Below, one piece after another: positions 52,064 through 57,413 of a DNA stretch of 64,000 nucleotides. Source of the stretch: Chloroflexota bacterium (GTDB lineage: Bacteria; Chloroflexota; Anaerolineae; Promineifilales; Promineifilaceae); assembly GCA_013112725.1 (NCBI GenBank), contig JABFFZ010000001.1, positions 62,001-126,000 of the forward strand, in the 5' to 3' direction. The translations under genes were made by a program, and so were the position numbers. The notes beneath the pieces were generated by a model. The model did not search any database and was not told where the DNA came from. It was given only the letters and a program-made list of their open reading frames with translations. Position 1 is the stretch's first letter. Each line of letters opens with the position of its first letter.

Positions 52064-53062
52064 CTATTGAAATCCCATCGGCTGCGGTTTGTTATCCAGC
52101 ACCGCTTCAATGGCTGCCATGACTTCATCAGTCAATTGAGGCACAACGTCTAACGCTTGCATGTTTTCTTCCACCTGGCTCACCCTTGACGCGCCCGTGA
52201 TGACTGTACTCACATGTGGATTTTTGATGCACCAGGCCAGCGCCAGCCGGGCCATGGTTGTGCCCAATTCGTTGGCAATCCGGCTCAATTCACGCACCTT
52301 CTGAATGCGTTGCTGCCCTTCCTCACTCTCAAAAGCCTCTTTTAACCATTCGTACCCCGGCAAATTGATGCGTGTGTCGGCCGGCTTGCCTTGATTATAT
52401 TTTCCTGTCAACAGACCCGACGCCAGCGGTGAAAAGGTGGTCGTACCCAGGCCGATGGTTTCGTAGAGACGGCCGTACTCCACTTCAAACCGGTACCGGT
52501 GAAACATGTTGTACTCTGGCTGCTCCATCGTGGGCGGGATCAGGTTATACTGCCTCGCCGTACTGTGAGCCTCCATGATCTGCTGCGCAGACCATTCCGA
52601 TGTACCCCAGTAAAACACTTTGCCCTGCTGAATCAATTCCGTCATGGTCCGTACCACTTCTTCCATGGGCACTTCCGGGTCAGGGCGGTGGCAGAAATAG
52701 AGGTCTAAATACTCTACCTGTAGCCGGGCCATTGCCTGGTGGCACGCTTCATAGATATGTTTGCGGCTCAGGCCGAATTGCATGGGTTTTGCTTGGGGCA
52801 CACTGCCCCAACGCACCTTGCTGGACACGGCGTAGCTGTCACGCGGCCAACCCAACTTTTGCAGCGCCTGCCCCATAATTATTTCTGACTGGCCATGGGC
52901 GTATATTTCCGCATTATCAAAGAAGTTCACCCCGGCCCTATAGGCCACCGCCATCATCTCGGCGGCTGCCTCTACATCTGCCTGGTTCTTAAACGTGACC
53001 CACGAACCAAAGGAAAGCACACTTACTTTCAAACCCGATTTACCTAACCGACGATATTCCAT
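52064..53062 (-). CDS. Aldo/keto reductase (Kv-beta/YghZ-like)
   Basis: A 332-residue NADPH-dependent oxidoreductase with a TIM barrel. The catalytic tetrad is visible: Asp49 and Tyr54 in [11 protein letters not shown], Lys82 in SSKVRWG and His125 in YFCHRPD. NADPH-binding segments [13 protein letters not shown] and [16 protein letters not shown] match the Kv-beta/YghZ branch. The substrate is probably a small aldehyde or ketone. It is first gene of a three-gene minus-strand operon (reductase, phosphorylase, acetyltransferase). Confidence 0.93.
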
Positions 53063-53235: not shown

Positions 53236-53264
53236 TTGACGGCCGTACCACACCCCGCTACAAT
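53236..53264 (+). promoter_or_regulatory. Near-consensus sigma-70 promoter of a leader-like unit
   Basis: TTGACG (53236-53241), exactly 17 nt, then TACAAT (53259-53264). This is one of the best promoters in the window. Expected start is about 53271, 25 nt before a small ORF and 270 nt before the ABC exporter genes. An ACGGCCGT copy lies at the -35/spacer junction. Confidence 0.75.
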
Positions 53265-53295
53265 CTCCGCCGTGATTGATTATCGGAGAACTCCT

Positions 53296-53403
53296 ATGAG
53301 CATCGTATGGCACATCGGCACACGCAACAATGGCGGAAATTTGTCCCGCCCGACATGCGTTGGCGTCTGTTCTCCGGTAAGCGTTGGCCGCACACGGCCG
53401 TAA
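53296..53403 (+). CDS. Small ORF (35 codons), putative leader peptide of the ABC exporter
   Basis: The ORF starts at ATG 53296 with GGAG 7 nt upstream and ends at TAA 53401-53403. The peptide begins MSIVWHIGTRNNGG and ends SVGRTRP; it resembles no family I know. The RNA around it is structured. TTATCGGAGAAC (53280-53291), which includes the ribosome binding site, can pair with 53369-53380. ACATGCG (53353-53359) can pair with CGCATGT (53439-53445) of the terminator arm. That gives a plausible antiterminator. Ribosome position on the ORF could choose between the structures and control the ABC genes. It could instead be a small RNA; coding is not proven. Confidence 0.5.
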   Translation: MSIVWHIGTRNNGGNLSRPTCVGVCSPVSVGRTRP

Positions 53404-53435
53404 ATCAAAACCCGCGCGCACCGTTCAACAACCCG

Positions 53436-53470
53436 CCCCGCATGTGAACAACATGTGGGGCTTTTTATTT
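53436..53470 (+). terminator. Intrinsic terminator before the ABC exporter genes
   Basis: CCCCGCATGT (53436-53445) pairs with ACATGTGGGG (53451-53460) with one G-U, followed by CTTTTTATTTT. It is a strong rho-independent terminator placed 73 nt before the start of the first ABC gene. It therefore either ends a small RNA or attenuates the operon. Confidence 0.88.
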
Positions 53471-53540
53471 TGAGATTAGAGATTAGAGATTGGAGATTTT
53501 CAGCGGCTCTCAATCTCTAATCTCCAATCTCCAATCTCTA
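53471..53540. repeat. GAGATTAGAGATTGG heptamer array with inverted partner
   Basis: Left units run to 53498; right units 53519-53540 are complementary, with a 15-bp perfect core (53484-53498 with 53526-53540). It directly precedes ATG 53543, so it occupies the place of the ribosome binding site. Confidence 0.8.
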
Positions 53541-53542
53541 CC

Positions 53543-55330
53543 ATGAACCAACCATCTTCACTTCGCCCATACTGGCAGCTTTTGTCCACCTACCTGCGCC
53601 CGCAGCGAGGGCGGGTATTGGCGCTGGCTGCTTTTGTCGTCCTGGGCATTGGCCTGCAACTGGCAAATCCGCAGATTGTGGCCTATTTCATTGATACCGC
53701 CTCCAGCAACACGGCCGTGCCCGGCACATCGGCCTATGCTGCTGGCCTGCAAAAGCTGTTTGGCGCGGCGGCCATCTTCATCAGCATTGCCTTGGTGCGG
53801 CAGGTGGTGAACATCACGGCCGTGTACCTGGGCGAAAATGTGGCCTGGACGGCCACTAACGCCCTGCGCGCTGACCTGGCGCTGCACTGCTTACGGCTGG
53901 ACATGGCCTTTCACAAAAGGCACAAACCGGGTGAACTCATCGAGCGCGTGGACGGCGACGTGAACCAACTGGCCAACTTCTTCTCCCAACTCATCATCCA
54001 GATGACCAGCAATCTGCTGCTGTTGGGCGGCGTGTTGATTTTGCTCTTTCTGGCCGATTGGCGTGTGGGGGCGTCCATCACGGCCGTCCTCGTTCTGGGT
54101 GGTGTAGCCCTGCGGTTTTTTGGCAAACGGGCCACCCCGCGCTGGCAAAAACTGCGCGCAGCCGACGCCAGCCTGTTTGGCTCGCTGGAAGAGTGGCTGA
54201 GCGGCACGGAAACCATCCGCTCGTCCGGGGCGGAGGCCGCCATCATGGGCAAACTGCTGCGGCTGGCCCGCGACCGCTGGCGGGCCATGAACAGCGCCAT
54301 GCGCGCCAACGTCTGGGTGATGCAAACGCCCACCTTCATCTTTGCCCTGGCCTATGGCTGCGCCCATCTGTTTGGCGCGGGGCTGTACGAACAGGGCATT
54401 ATGACCATCGGCAGTGTTTACCTCATTTTCTACTACATTGACCTGATCAAAGACCCGCTCTGGCGTATCAACCGGCAGGTGGAAGATTTGCAGCGGGCCG
54501 GGGCCAGCGTCAACCGCATCGTGGAATTGTGGGCGCAGCAGCCGACTCTGACGGATGGGCCGGGTGTGGATTTCCCATCCGGGCCGCTGGCGGTGGAATT
54601 TGCCAATGTCTCTTTCTTTTATGCCGATGACCCGGACACGGCCGTGCTCGACAACATCAACTTCTCCCTGGCCCCCGGTACGATCCTGGGCGTCTTGGGG
54701 CGCACCGGCAGCGGCAAATCTACGCTCACCAAGCTGCTCTCTCGCTTTTATGACCCCACCGGCGGCATGGTGCGGCTGGGTGGACACCATATTCGCCGGG
54801 CCAAACAGTCCCAACTGCGCCAGCACATTGGCCTGGTGACGCAAGACGTGCAGTTGTTCCACGCCTCGCTGCGGGACAATCTGACGCTGTTTGGTGCGGA
54901 GATTGACGACGGCCGTATCCTTGCCGTCCTCGATGAACTGGGGCTGCGCGATTGGCTGAACCGGCTGCCTAATGGCCTGGACAGTGAACTGGCGGCCGAT
55001 ACCAGCCTCTCCGCCGGGGAAGCGCAGCTATTGGCCTTCGCCCGCGTCTTTCTGGCCGACCCCGGCCTGGTCATTCTGGATGAAGCCTCCTCCCGGCTAG
55101 ACCCGGCCACGGAACGGCTGATCGAACGGGCCACCGACCGGCTGCTGACCAACCGCACTGCCATCATCGTCGCTCACCGGTTGGGCACGGTGCAGCGAGC
55201 GGACGAGATATTGGTGTTGGGCGACGGCCGTGTGCTGGAACACGGCCGTCGCGCCCAACTGGCCAATGACCCACAGTCGCATTTTTATCGGCTGTTGCAG
55301 ACTGGATTGGAAGAAGAGATTAGAGATTAG
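53543..55330 (+). CDS. ABC exporter half-transporter, subunit 1
   Basis: A 595-residue fusion of a six-helix export-type membrane domain (about 1-310) and a nucleotide-binding domain. Motifs: Walker [10 protein letters not shown] (386-394), Q-loop [11 protein letters not shown], Walker [14 protein letters not shown] with the catalytic Glu, and H-loop IVAHRLG. The signature is degenerate, LSAGEAQ instead of LSGGQ (about residue 489). Together with the next gene it should form an asymmetric heterodimer. The C-terminal EEIRD and stop are encoded by a repeat. Likely substrates are drugs, lipids or peptides; none is indicated directly. Confidence 0.92.
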
Positions 55331-55372
55331 AGATTGGAGATACGGCATTCCTAATCTCCAATCTCTAATCTC
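55323..55372. repeat. 18-bp GAGATTAG-type hairpin between ABC genes
   Basis: Arms 55323-55340 and 55355-55372 pair perfectly. The left arm provides the last codons and the TAG stop of subunit 1; the right arm ends 16 nt before the start of subunit 2. Confidence 0.8.
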
Positions 55373-55388
55373 TGATCTCCACAAAACT

Positions 55389-57413
55389 ATGACCACACCA
55401 ACCCTGAAAACCTACCAATACTTTTGGCGGCTGATGACCTTCCGCCCCGTTTATTACGTCGGCGACGTAATCACCATTTCCATTCACATGGTGGCCACCA
55501 TTGCCGTGGGCCTGATCCTCAAGCTCTTTTTTGACTGGCTGACGGGCGTCAATGACCTGGATGTGACTGTATGGGCCTTTGTCGGGCTGCAAGTGGCGGC
55601 GGCGCTGGTGATGGGGCTGTCGCTGGCGGGCGCGGCGCTCTGCTACATCAACTTTCAATACCACAGCTATGGCCTGCTCATGCGTAACCTGTTGGCGCGC
55701 ATTTTGCAGCGGCCCGGCGCTGACCCCTTGCCGCGTAAACCGGAGGGGGGCCGCCTCTCCACCGGCGAAGCGATCAGCACCTTCCGCGATGACACCGAAG
55801 CATTACTGGAAGGCATCGTGGTTATTGATGACCTGGTGGGCCTCATTTTTATGGCCGCTTTTTCCTTTGCCATTATGCTGCAAATCAGCGTCACGGTGAC
55901 GTTGGGCGTTTTTGTACCCCTGGCGTTTGTCGTGTTCATTGCCCAACGGCTGCGCCACCGCGCCCGCGCTTACCGCGCCAAAAGTCGTGAAGCCACCAGC
56001 CAGGTGACGGGCCTCATCGCCGATATGTTCAACAGCGCCCAGGCGTTGAAAGTGGCTCACGCTGAGGAACGCATTGTGGCTCGTTTTCGCGCCCAGAATG
56101 AGCGGCGCAAGGAAGCGATGGTCAAAGACCGGCTGCTGGCGCAGGTGGTAGAGGCCTTCTCCAACGGTACGGTGGATATGGGCGTGGGCTTGATTTTGCT
56201 GTTTGTGGCCCAGGCGATGTATGCCGGTGAATTCACGGTGGGCGACTTTGCCCTGTTCGCTGCCTACATCTGGCCGGTGACAAGCCTGATGCGTATGGCG
56301 GGTACGGTGATTACCCGGTACAACCAGGTGGCCGTTTCCAACCAGCGTATGGAAGCAATGATGCAGGGTGCCCCGCCGGGCGAGGTAGTAGCGCACCATC
56401 CTATCTACTTCGACGGCCGTGACGGGCCACCTCCCGATCTCCCCTATACGCCCAAAACGGCCGTCCGCCGGCTGGAACGGCTGGAAGTGCGGGGGTTGGG
56501 GTATCGGTATCCGGGGAGCGGTGAGCAGTTAGCAGTGAGCAGTGAGCAGTTAGCAGTGAGCGGTGAGCAGTTGGCAGTGAGCAGTGAGCAGTTGGCAGTG
56601 AGCAGTGAGCAGTTGGCAGTGAGCGGTGAGCAGTTAGCAGTGAGCGGTGAGCAGTTAGCAGTGAGCGACGGACGCAGCGTCCGCGAGCAGTTGGGTGACG
56701 GCTCACTCGTCACTCGTCACGCATCACGCATCACGGATTACGCCATCCAAGACATCTCCTTCACCCTGCCGCGTGGCTCTTTCACTGTTGTCACCGGGCG
56801 GATTGGCGCGGGCAAGACGACGCTGTTGAAGTCGTTGTTAGGGCTGCTGCCGCCGAGCGAGGGGGAGATTTGGTGGAATGGGGAACGGGTGGAGGACCCG
56901 GCGGCCTTTTTCACCCCGCCCCGTGCCGCCTACACCGGGCAGATTCCGCGCCTGTTCAGTGAGACCATCCGTGAGAACATCCTGTTGGGGCTGCCGGAGG
57001 AGCGGGTGGACGTGCCACGGGCGGTACATACGGCCGTGCTCGACCGCGACATCCGTGACATGGAGCTGGAGCTGGATACGGTGGTGGGGCCGCGTGGCGT
57101 GCGCCTCTCTGGTGGTCAGGTGCAGCGCACTGCCGCCGCCCGCATGTTTGTGCGCGACGCCGAACTGCTCGTCTTTGACGACCTCTCCAGCGCCCTGGAC
57201 GTGGAGACGGAGGCGCTGCTGTGGGAGCGGCTGTTTAGTGGGCAGGATGGCGACCGGCCGACTTGCCTGGTTATTTCCCACCGCCGCGCCGTGCTGCGCC
57301 GCGCCGACCAGATTATTGTGCTGCAAGACGGCCGTGTGGCCGCCACCGGTACGCTTGATGAACTGCTGCAAACCAGCGAGGAGATGCGGCGGTTGTGGGC
57401 GGGGGAAGAGTGA
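55389..57413 (+). CDS. ABC exporter half-transporter, subunit 2, with repeat insertion in its ATPase domain
   Basis: A 674-residue membrane/ATPase fusion. The start at 55389 ([16 protein letters not shown]) lies 58 nt after subunit 1; a longer open frame upstream overlaps subunit 1 and is rejected. Motifs: Walker [10 protein letters not shown] (about 471), signature [15 protein letters not shown] (intact), Walker [13 protein letters not shown] with Asp in place of the catalytic Glu, and H-loop VISHRRA. The missing Glu here and the degenerate signature in subunit 1 give one consensus and one degenerate ATP site, as in TM287/288 and BmrCD. About 75 residues (376-450) between the first strands of the ATPase domain are repeat-encoded. 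Confidence 0.92.
56516..56740 (+). repeat. In-frame 21-nt tandem repeat array in an ABC ATPase domain
   Basis: Seven successive copies of EQLAVS plus S or G are encoded by a 21-nt unit made of three 7-nt subunits of the AGCAGT family. This is followed by residues from the TCACGCA family (about 56695-56740). The frame is kept throughout. Intergenic relatives are at 3491-3554, 11503-11565 and 761-807. Confidence 0.93.

Follow-up and report, generated by a model that had tools for sequence, protein, structure and literature searches.

Control of drug pumps through leader peptides has been documented for a few cultured bacteria. An experimentally studied precedent for a leader open reading frame (ORF) before a heterodimeric pump is bmrB of Bacillus subtilis, for which lincomycin, erythromycin, and chloramphenicol act as inducers and the promoter itself is not drug responsive (PMC4191407). 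For PA5471.1, the leader of armZ (MexXY) in Pseudomonas aeruginosa, transcription attenuation by impaired ribosomes has been proposed (PMC12057347). In a survey of premature terminators, ABC transporter genes ranked first in the absolute number of attenuators predicted (PMC2965389).

We analyzed a leader that precedes an ABC exporter in an uncultured Chloroflexota bacterium. The 64,000-nucleotide stretch of DNA examined (the window) is C1:62001-126000 of a 158-contig genome, and a sequence-only reading of it had proposed BmrB-like control at this locus. The elements of such a switch are present and conserved and form mutually exclusive pairings, and the design recurs before related exporters. 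We think it likely that the leader region controls the heterodimeric ABC exporter downstream of it as a ribosome-mediated transcription attenuator.

A leader ORF and terminator precede a two-gene ABC exporter operon

The leader is flanked by a divergent aldo/keto reductase gene (52064 to 53062, minus strand) and by the exporter operon (Table 1). Because the reductase gene lies upstream and is divergent, the terminator can serve solely the plus-strand leader transcript. The promoter, the 35-codon ORF with its ribosome binding site, and the intrinsic terminator reported by the sequence-only reading are all present; the terminator is strong, begins 31 nt past the leader stop codon, and its stem is followed by TTTTTATTTT. 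Transcription probably starts near position 53271. No promoter-like site that might drive the ABC genes separately was found between 53470 and 53543. The locus thus has the general makeup of an attenuator, with a promoter, a short ORF bearing a Shine-Dalgarno (SD) sequence, and an intrinsic terminator before an operon that has no other promoter.

Table 1. Features of the leader and exporter locus, in window coordinates
Feature	Position	Strand	Basis or remark
Sigma70-type promoter, TTGACG-17-TACAAT	53236..53264	+	Sequence; kept in five congeners
Stem P1, 5' arm, holds SD	53279..53291	+	Consensus structure, shuffles
Shine-Dalgarno GGAG of leader ORF	53285..53288	+	Within GGAGAAC, invariant in six genomes
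Leader ORF, 35 codons plus TAA, MSIVWHIGTRNNGGNLSRPTCVGVCSPVSVGRTRP	53296..53403	+	Same length and stop in six genomes
Hairpin P3, 5' arm (anti-antiterminator, segment 1)	53316..53326	+	Consensus structure; mostly invariant
Antiterminator left strand, ACAUGCG-UU-GGCG	53353..53365	+	Identical in six genomes
Hairpin P3, 3' arm (segment 2, common to antiterminator)	53356..53365	+	Consensus structure
Stem P1, 3' arm, within ORF end	53369..53382	+	Consensus structure, shuffles
Antiterminator right strand = terminator 5' arm plus C53434 (segment 3)	53434..53445	+	CGCCCCGCATGT identical in six genomes
Intrinsic terminator, 11-bp stem, loop of 5, T tract	53435..53471 (stem 53435-53461)	+	Conserved
Dispersed inverted-repeat element, terminator-exporter spacer	53469..53540	.	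Not part of switch
ABC exporter subunit 1, 595 aa, catalytic Walker B Glu, LSAGE signature	53543..55330	+	Sequence families
ABC exporter subunit 2, Asp replacing Walker B Glu, LSGGQ signature	55389..57413	+	Sequence families

The exporter subunits are two neighboring ABC_membrane plus ABC_tran proteins (53543 to 57413). As had been suggested, they make an asymmetric exporter like BmrCD, with adjacent TMD-NBD subunits and one degenerate catalytic site (LVILDEAS versus LLVFDDLS, with signature motifs LSAGE versus LSGGQ). Sequence relatives of subunit 1 (ABC1) include TM288 and BmrD (YheH), and ABC1 has strong matches in 18 of the 22 genera of the family. An in-frame 21-bp minisatellite of SEQLAVS units (56516 to 56667) lies inside the linker before the nucleotide-binding domain of subunit 2 and is shorter in G004.

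The promoter core is not peculiar to this unit, since near-identical copies lie ahead of other transcription units in the genus. The idea that the promoter is a piece of a repeated leader was rejected, as the remaining copies are promoters alone, without the window leader. Another promoter of this type stands ahead of several genes (L070 to L078), where a conserved 5' untranslated region (UTR) comes after it (GTTGTGTGGAGCC[AG]CCGGTCAGCCAACCGGAGCC); the copies of this 5' UTR that were scanned had no Rfam match. The spacer element downstream of the terminator is an inverted repeat built of AGATTGGAGATT-like units and present in dozens of genomic copies; a search of the organism's own genome gave 82 matches, mostly copies of this repeat elsewhere. 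At this site, the repeat is missing or swapped for another repeat in G001 and G005. The palindrome ACGGCCGT occurs 141 times in the 64 kb, versus about 1.6 occurrences expected from base composition.

Base pairing and reading frame are conserved within the genus

The unit also adjoins the exporter in five congeners, at 96, 95, 92, 91, and 71% identity, the last being G005, where the promoter reads TTGACG-17-TAAAAT. Both the ORF and the pairings are conserved in all five. The sequences GGAGAAC, TATGA, ACATGCGTTGGCG, GTTCTC, and CGCCCCGCATGT are invariant in the six genomes.

This constant association bears on the reading of the unit as a short independent transcript, that is, a gene for a small RNA or micropeptide that has a terminator of its own, the exporter being driven by a different promoter or by steady leakage. 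The unit of about 195 nt is indeed self-contained, and the exporter starts about 70 nt past the T tract, after the dispersed repeat. We nevertheless judge this reading quite improbable, since the unit adjoins the exporter in 6/6 genomes, the interval from terminator to exporter holds no promoter-like site and differs among congeners, and leader-plus-terminator units stand before orthologs in other genera.

The leader ORF keeps its frame, length, and TAA in the six genomes, with no indels in 108 nt; several indels fall in the roughly 30 nt 3' of its stop codon. Between the window's genome (G000) and G005, codon changes in the leader are 3 synonymous and 16 nonsynonymous, versus 198 and 101 in ABC1 (Fisher P = 2e-5). 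In the same comparison, fourfold sites at codons for the same residue are unchanged at 12/14 positions in the leader and 160/278 in ABC1 (P = 0.05). The substitution pattern and the fourfold sites together indicate that RNA pairing and reading frame are kept and not the peptide as a protein. Of the peptide and the paired bases, which the sequence-only reading had proposed comparing in relatives, it was the bases that proved conserved and not the peptide sequence as protein. We therefore rejected the leader peptide as a conserved protein on the basis of its mostly nonsynonymous substitutions, and it had no Pfam or NCBIfam match. The peptide shows no amino acid constraint, so the pattern points to no particular stalling peptide, and translation of the ORF is inferred.

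Residues 4 to 6 of the peptide are VWH in the window and YFY in G005. The aromatic codons near the start of both versions of the ORF would suit an amino acid starvation attenuator that senses Trp/His or aromatic residues at codons 4 to 6, and amino acid leaders do exist in the class (before aroH, argG, and leuS). This reading is very hard to sustain, because the ORF has no run of a single amino acid, residues 4 to 6 vary between species, and an exporter is no biosynthetic target.

The leader RNA can form mutually exclusive structures

The pairing of ACATGCG (53353 to 53359) with CGCATGT (53439 to 53445) pointed out by the sequence-only reading is complementary, and the real pairing is longer than was stated. 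Through a 2x1 loop, GGCG (53362 to 53365) pairs with CGCC (53434 to 53437), giving an antiterminator of 11 Watson-Crick pairs and -17.7 kcal/mol, with the terminator hairpin at -21.9. The antiterminator left strand overlaps the 3' arm of P3, so that the antiterminator and P3 are mutually exclusive. Mutually exclusive anti-antiterminator, antiterminator, and terminator pairings are present and conserved in the six genomes.

The P3 arms are invariant in the six genomes except for one C-G to U-G change. C53434, which lies outside the terminator stem, is invariant, as is the ACA that is paired solely by the antiterminator. Changes to P1 in G005 preserve pairing (C-G to U-G and G-C to G-U) and are nearly all one-sided. 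No covariation was found for the antiterminator within the genus. The stability of P1, which joins the SD and the ORF end, was reached by 0/2000 dinucleotide shuffles (P = 0.006 for a shorter arm). For the window antiterminator, 36% of the shuffles were as good (P = 0.48 in another run) because the terminator arm is GC rich, and it is therefore not established by energy alone; the G005 antiterminator was borderline (P = 0.044). Support for the antiterminator comes from its conservation and its overlap with P3.

The whole leader transcript folds better than its shuffles, with z scores of -2.8 for the window and -3.0 for G005. This folding, the preponderance of nonsynonymous leader substitutions, and core conservation at the nucleotide level, including most synonymous sites, would also fit a riboswitch-like RNA that senses a ligand or protein independently of translation, with the ORF incidental and GGAG merely part of P1. 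Such an RNA is unlikely here: P1, P3, or the antiterminator account for most conserved bases, the internal loop is variable on its 5' side, and no obvious conserved aptamer core is left, whereas the SD spacing, ATG, frame, and stop are all kept. Furthermore, the unrelated leaders of other exporters in the class share just the ORF-plus-terminator design. The leader had no Rfam match at the gathering score, with sub-threshold hits only, and a known riboswitch or small RNA was rejected on this ground.

A ribosome early in the leader ORF is predicted to favor antitermination

We modeled folding of the RNA as far as the terminator loop, with the footprint of a ribosome blocked at successive codons, using an equilibrium model without kinetics. 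In the window leader, the predicted probability of pairing between the terminator arm and the ORF was 0.77 to 0.90 with P-site codons 1 to 15, 0.01 at codons 18 to 20, and 0.04 at the stop codon, with some in-between positions intermediate. When no ribosome was placed on the RNA, the value was 0.54. The leader of G007 behaved similarly (0.89 at codons 1 to 11 and ≤0.03 at codons 14 to 21). In G005 the early window of pairing was seen, yet the antiterminator also formed at several late codons and without a ribosome.

These results are consistent with a mechanism in which RNA polymerase would start near 53271 and a ribosome would begin the 35-codon ORF. Translation to the stop codon would leave the antiterminator strand unavailable, and transcription would terminate at 53435 to 53461. 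A ribosome held within about the first 15 codons would cover the 5' arms of P1 and P3; the likeliest cause of such a hold is an inhibitor of translation that is itself a substrate of the pump. The strand at 53353 to 53365 would then be free to pair with 53434 to 53445, no terminator would form, and the exporter would be transcribed. Read-through in response to a stalled ribosome is inferred, as is the type of inducer.

Probable leader-ORF attenuators recur before related exporters in the class

The exact leader was not found outside the genus by a DNA search of 98 relatives or by a covariance model (R1) run on 298 class genomes, and it had no phage match; by sequence, the window leader is genus specific. 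Leaders of other kinds precede orthologous exporters. The G007 ortholog (L050, apparently the same locus as L084), of about 60% identity, has a promoter, an SD, an unrelated 25-codon ORF (MILVRRTNPNVYPPISGGYLPIQQF), and a terminator, and its SD arm is complementary to the end of that ORF. Its antiterminator, GCGG(U)GGCU:AGCCCCGC, beats shuffles (P = 0.002), and its SD stem has a P value of 0.13. Two other orthologs of the same family (L044 and L045) have a promoter and a terminator within about 20 nt, with no ORF between, an arrangement conserved in two species; L049 has a short leader. Several further orthologs have no evident attenuator.

The Anaerolineales orthologs L104, L116, L139, L140, L157, and L159, and a second exporter type, have what we call RSAP attenuators. 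In these leaders the ORF typically ends in ..PSRSAPVDR, the SD arm pairs as GCGCACUUC : GAAGUGCGC, and the antiterminator pairs as GUGCGCC : GGUGCAC. Across the class of RSAP leaders (L167 to L196 and others), the ORF ends in RSAP, WSAP, or TSAP codons. A covariance model of the 3' half of the RSAP leader (R2; cutoff, E ≤ 0.01) matched up to 69/396 class genomes, with two to four matches per genome in several; 69 is an upper estimate because some weaker matches are unrelated terminators or amino acid leaders. In the phylum outside this class, R2 matched L217, L219, and L222, which were terminators only and were rejected. An ABC exporter of one of the two types lies directly downstream in 21/30 fetched R2 loci, and other R2 loci stand before GNAT acetyltransferases, an RsgA GTPase, and an ABC ATPase.

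An ORF could be assigned in 36 RSAP loci. In these, a single segment at the ORF end usually pairs with both the SD arm and the terminator arm (median z, -2.5 and -2.1), and the distance from stop to terminator is 16 to 36 nt, a range that takes in the 31 nt of the window. Compensatory changes occur across the three pairing segments, with variants in L178 (GCGCGCC with CGCGCUAC and GGUGCGC), L207 (GUGCGUCC with GGACGCAC), and L211 (GUGUGCC with GGCACACU). The RSAP class is apparently undescribed; we found no published account of such leaders in Chloroflexota in a search mainly of open-access literature.

Amino acid leaders were also seen. In the window's own genome, a leucine-rich leader ORF (MKQLLADHKSLFLSGLLLPG...) and a terminator precede leuS, encoding leucyl-tRNA synthetase (L213; G000:C11:42398-42457, minus strand), which makes attenuation by ribosomes plausible in this organism. 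L198 (MNHKPVYFSFYFYF...) is likely an aromatic attenuator before the chorismate mutase gene aroH, and L206 (MIMIHRRRSNRNEGR...) is likely an arginine attenuator before argG.

From these loci we tentatively propose, as a possibility that we hold with less than even confidence, that the Anaerolineae carry a large, fast-evolving set of leader-ORF attenuators in which the leader's SD is the first arm of the switch, the window being a genus-specific example. Stalling of a ribosome on or close to the start codon, whatever the peptide, would turn on exporters, acetyltransferases, and related genes, and the switch would be a generic sensor of blocked early translation that has arisen several times before the same pump. 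Taken with its analogues, this locus suggests that such control is widespread in a phylum with many uncultured species and that it originated repeatedly before the same exporter, and control may rest on ribosome position rather than on the sequence of the peptide. Covariation among three segments of the related leaders makes the idea directly testable and offers a handle on the natural compounds that these bacteria meet.

Comparison with known systems

Trp-type attenuators resemble the window leader in having three mutually exclusive pairings around a leader ORF; they differ in that the window has no run of regulatory codons and has an exporter instead of a biosynthetic operon. PA5471.1 shares a leader peptide and the control of efflux, but its target is an anti-repressor gene and not the pump directly, and the pump is of another class (PMC12057347).

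The RSAP attenuators are alike in the pairing of the SD arm with the ORF end, the pairing of the ORF end with the terminator arm, and the same or related exporters downstream. However, the RSAP model R2 gave no match at the window locus even at an E value of 10, and antitermination is predicted mostly for ribosomes at codons 1 to 4 in RSAP leaders versus codons 1 to 15 in the window.

The likeness to bmrB lies in a small ORF (translated in bmrB), a terminator, an antiterminator, and an anti-antiterminator before a heterodimeric multidrug ABC exporter (PMC4191407). The bmrB ORF has 53 codons with the terminator inside it (PMC4191407), compared with 35 codons and a terminator past the stop in the window. 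The two come from different phyla with no known sequence relation, and a stem containing the SD is central in the window leader. The sequence-only view that this is an independent case of BmrB-like control gains support from the class orthologs, which have unrelated leader-ORF attenuators of the same build. By sequence the leader falls outside the RSAP class, and the best reading is a ribosome-mediated transcription attenuator that probably works like bmrB, through likeness of design and not through a known sequence relation.
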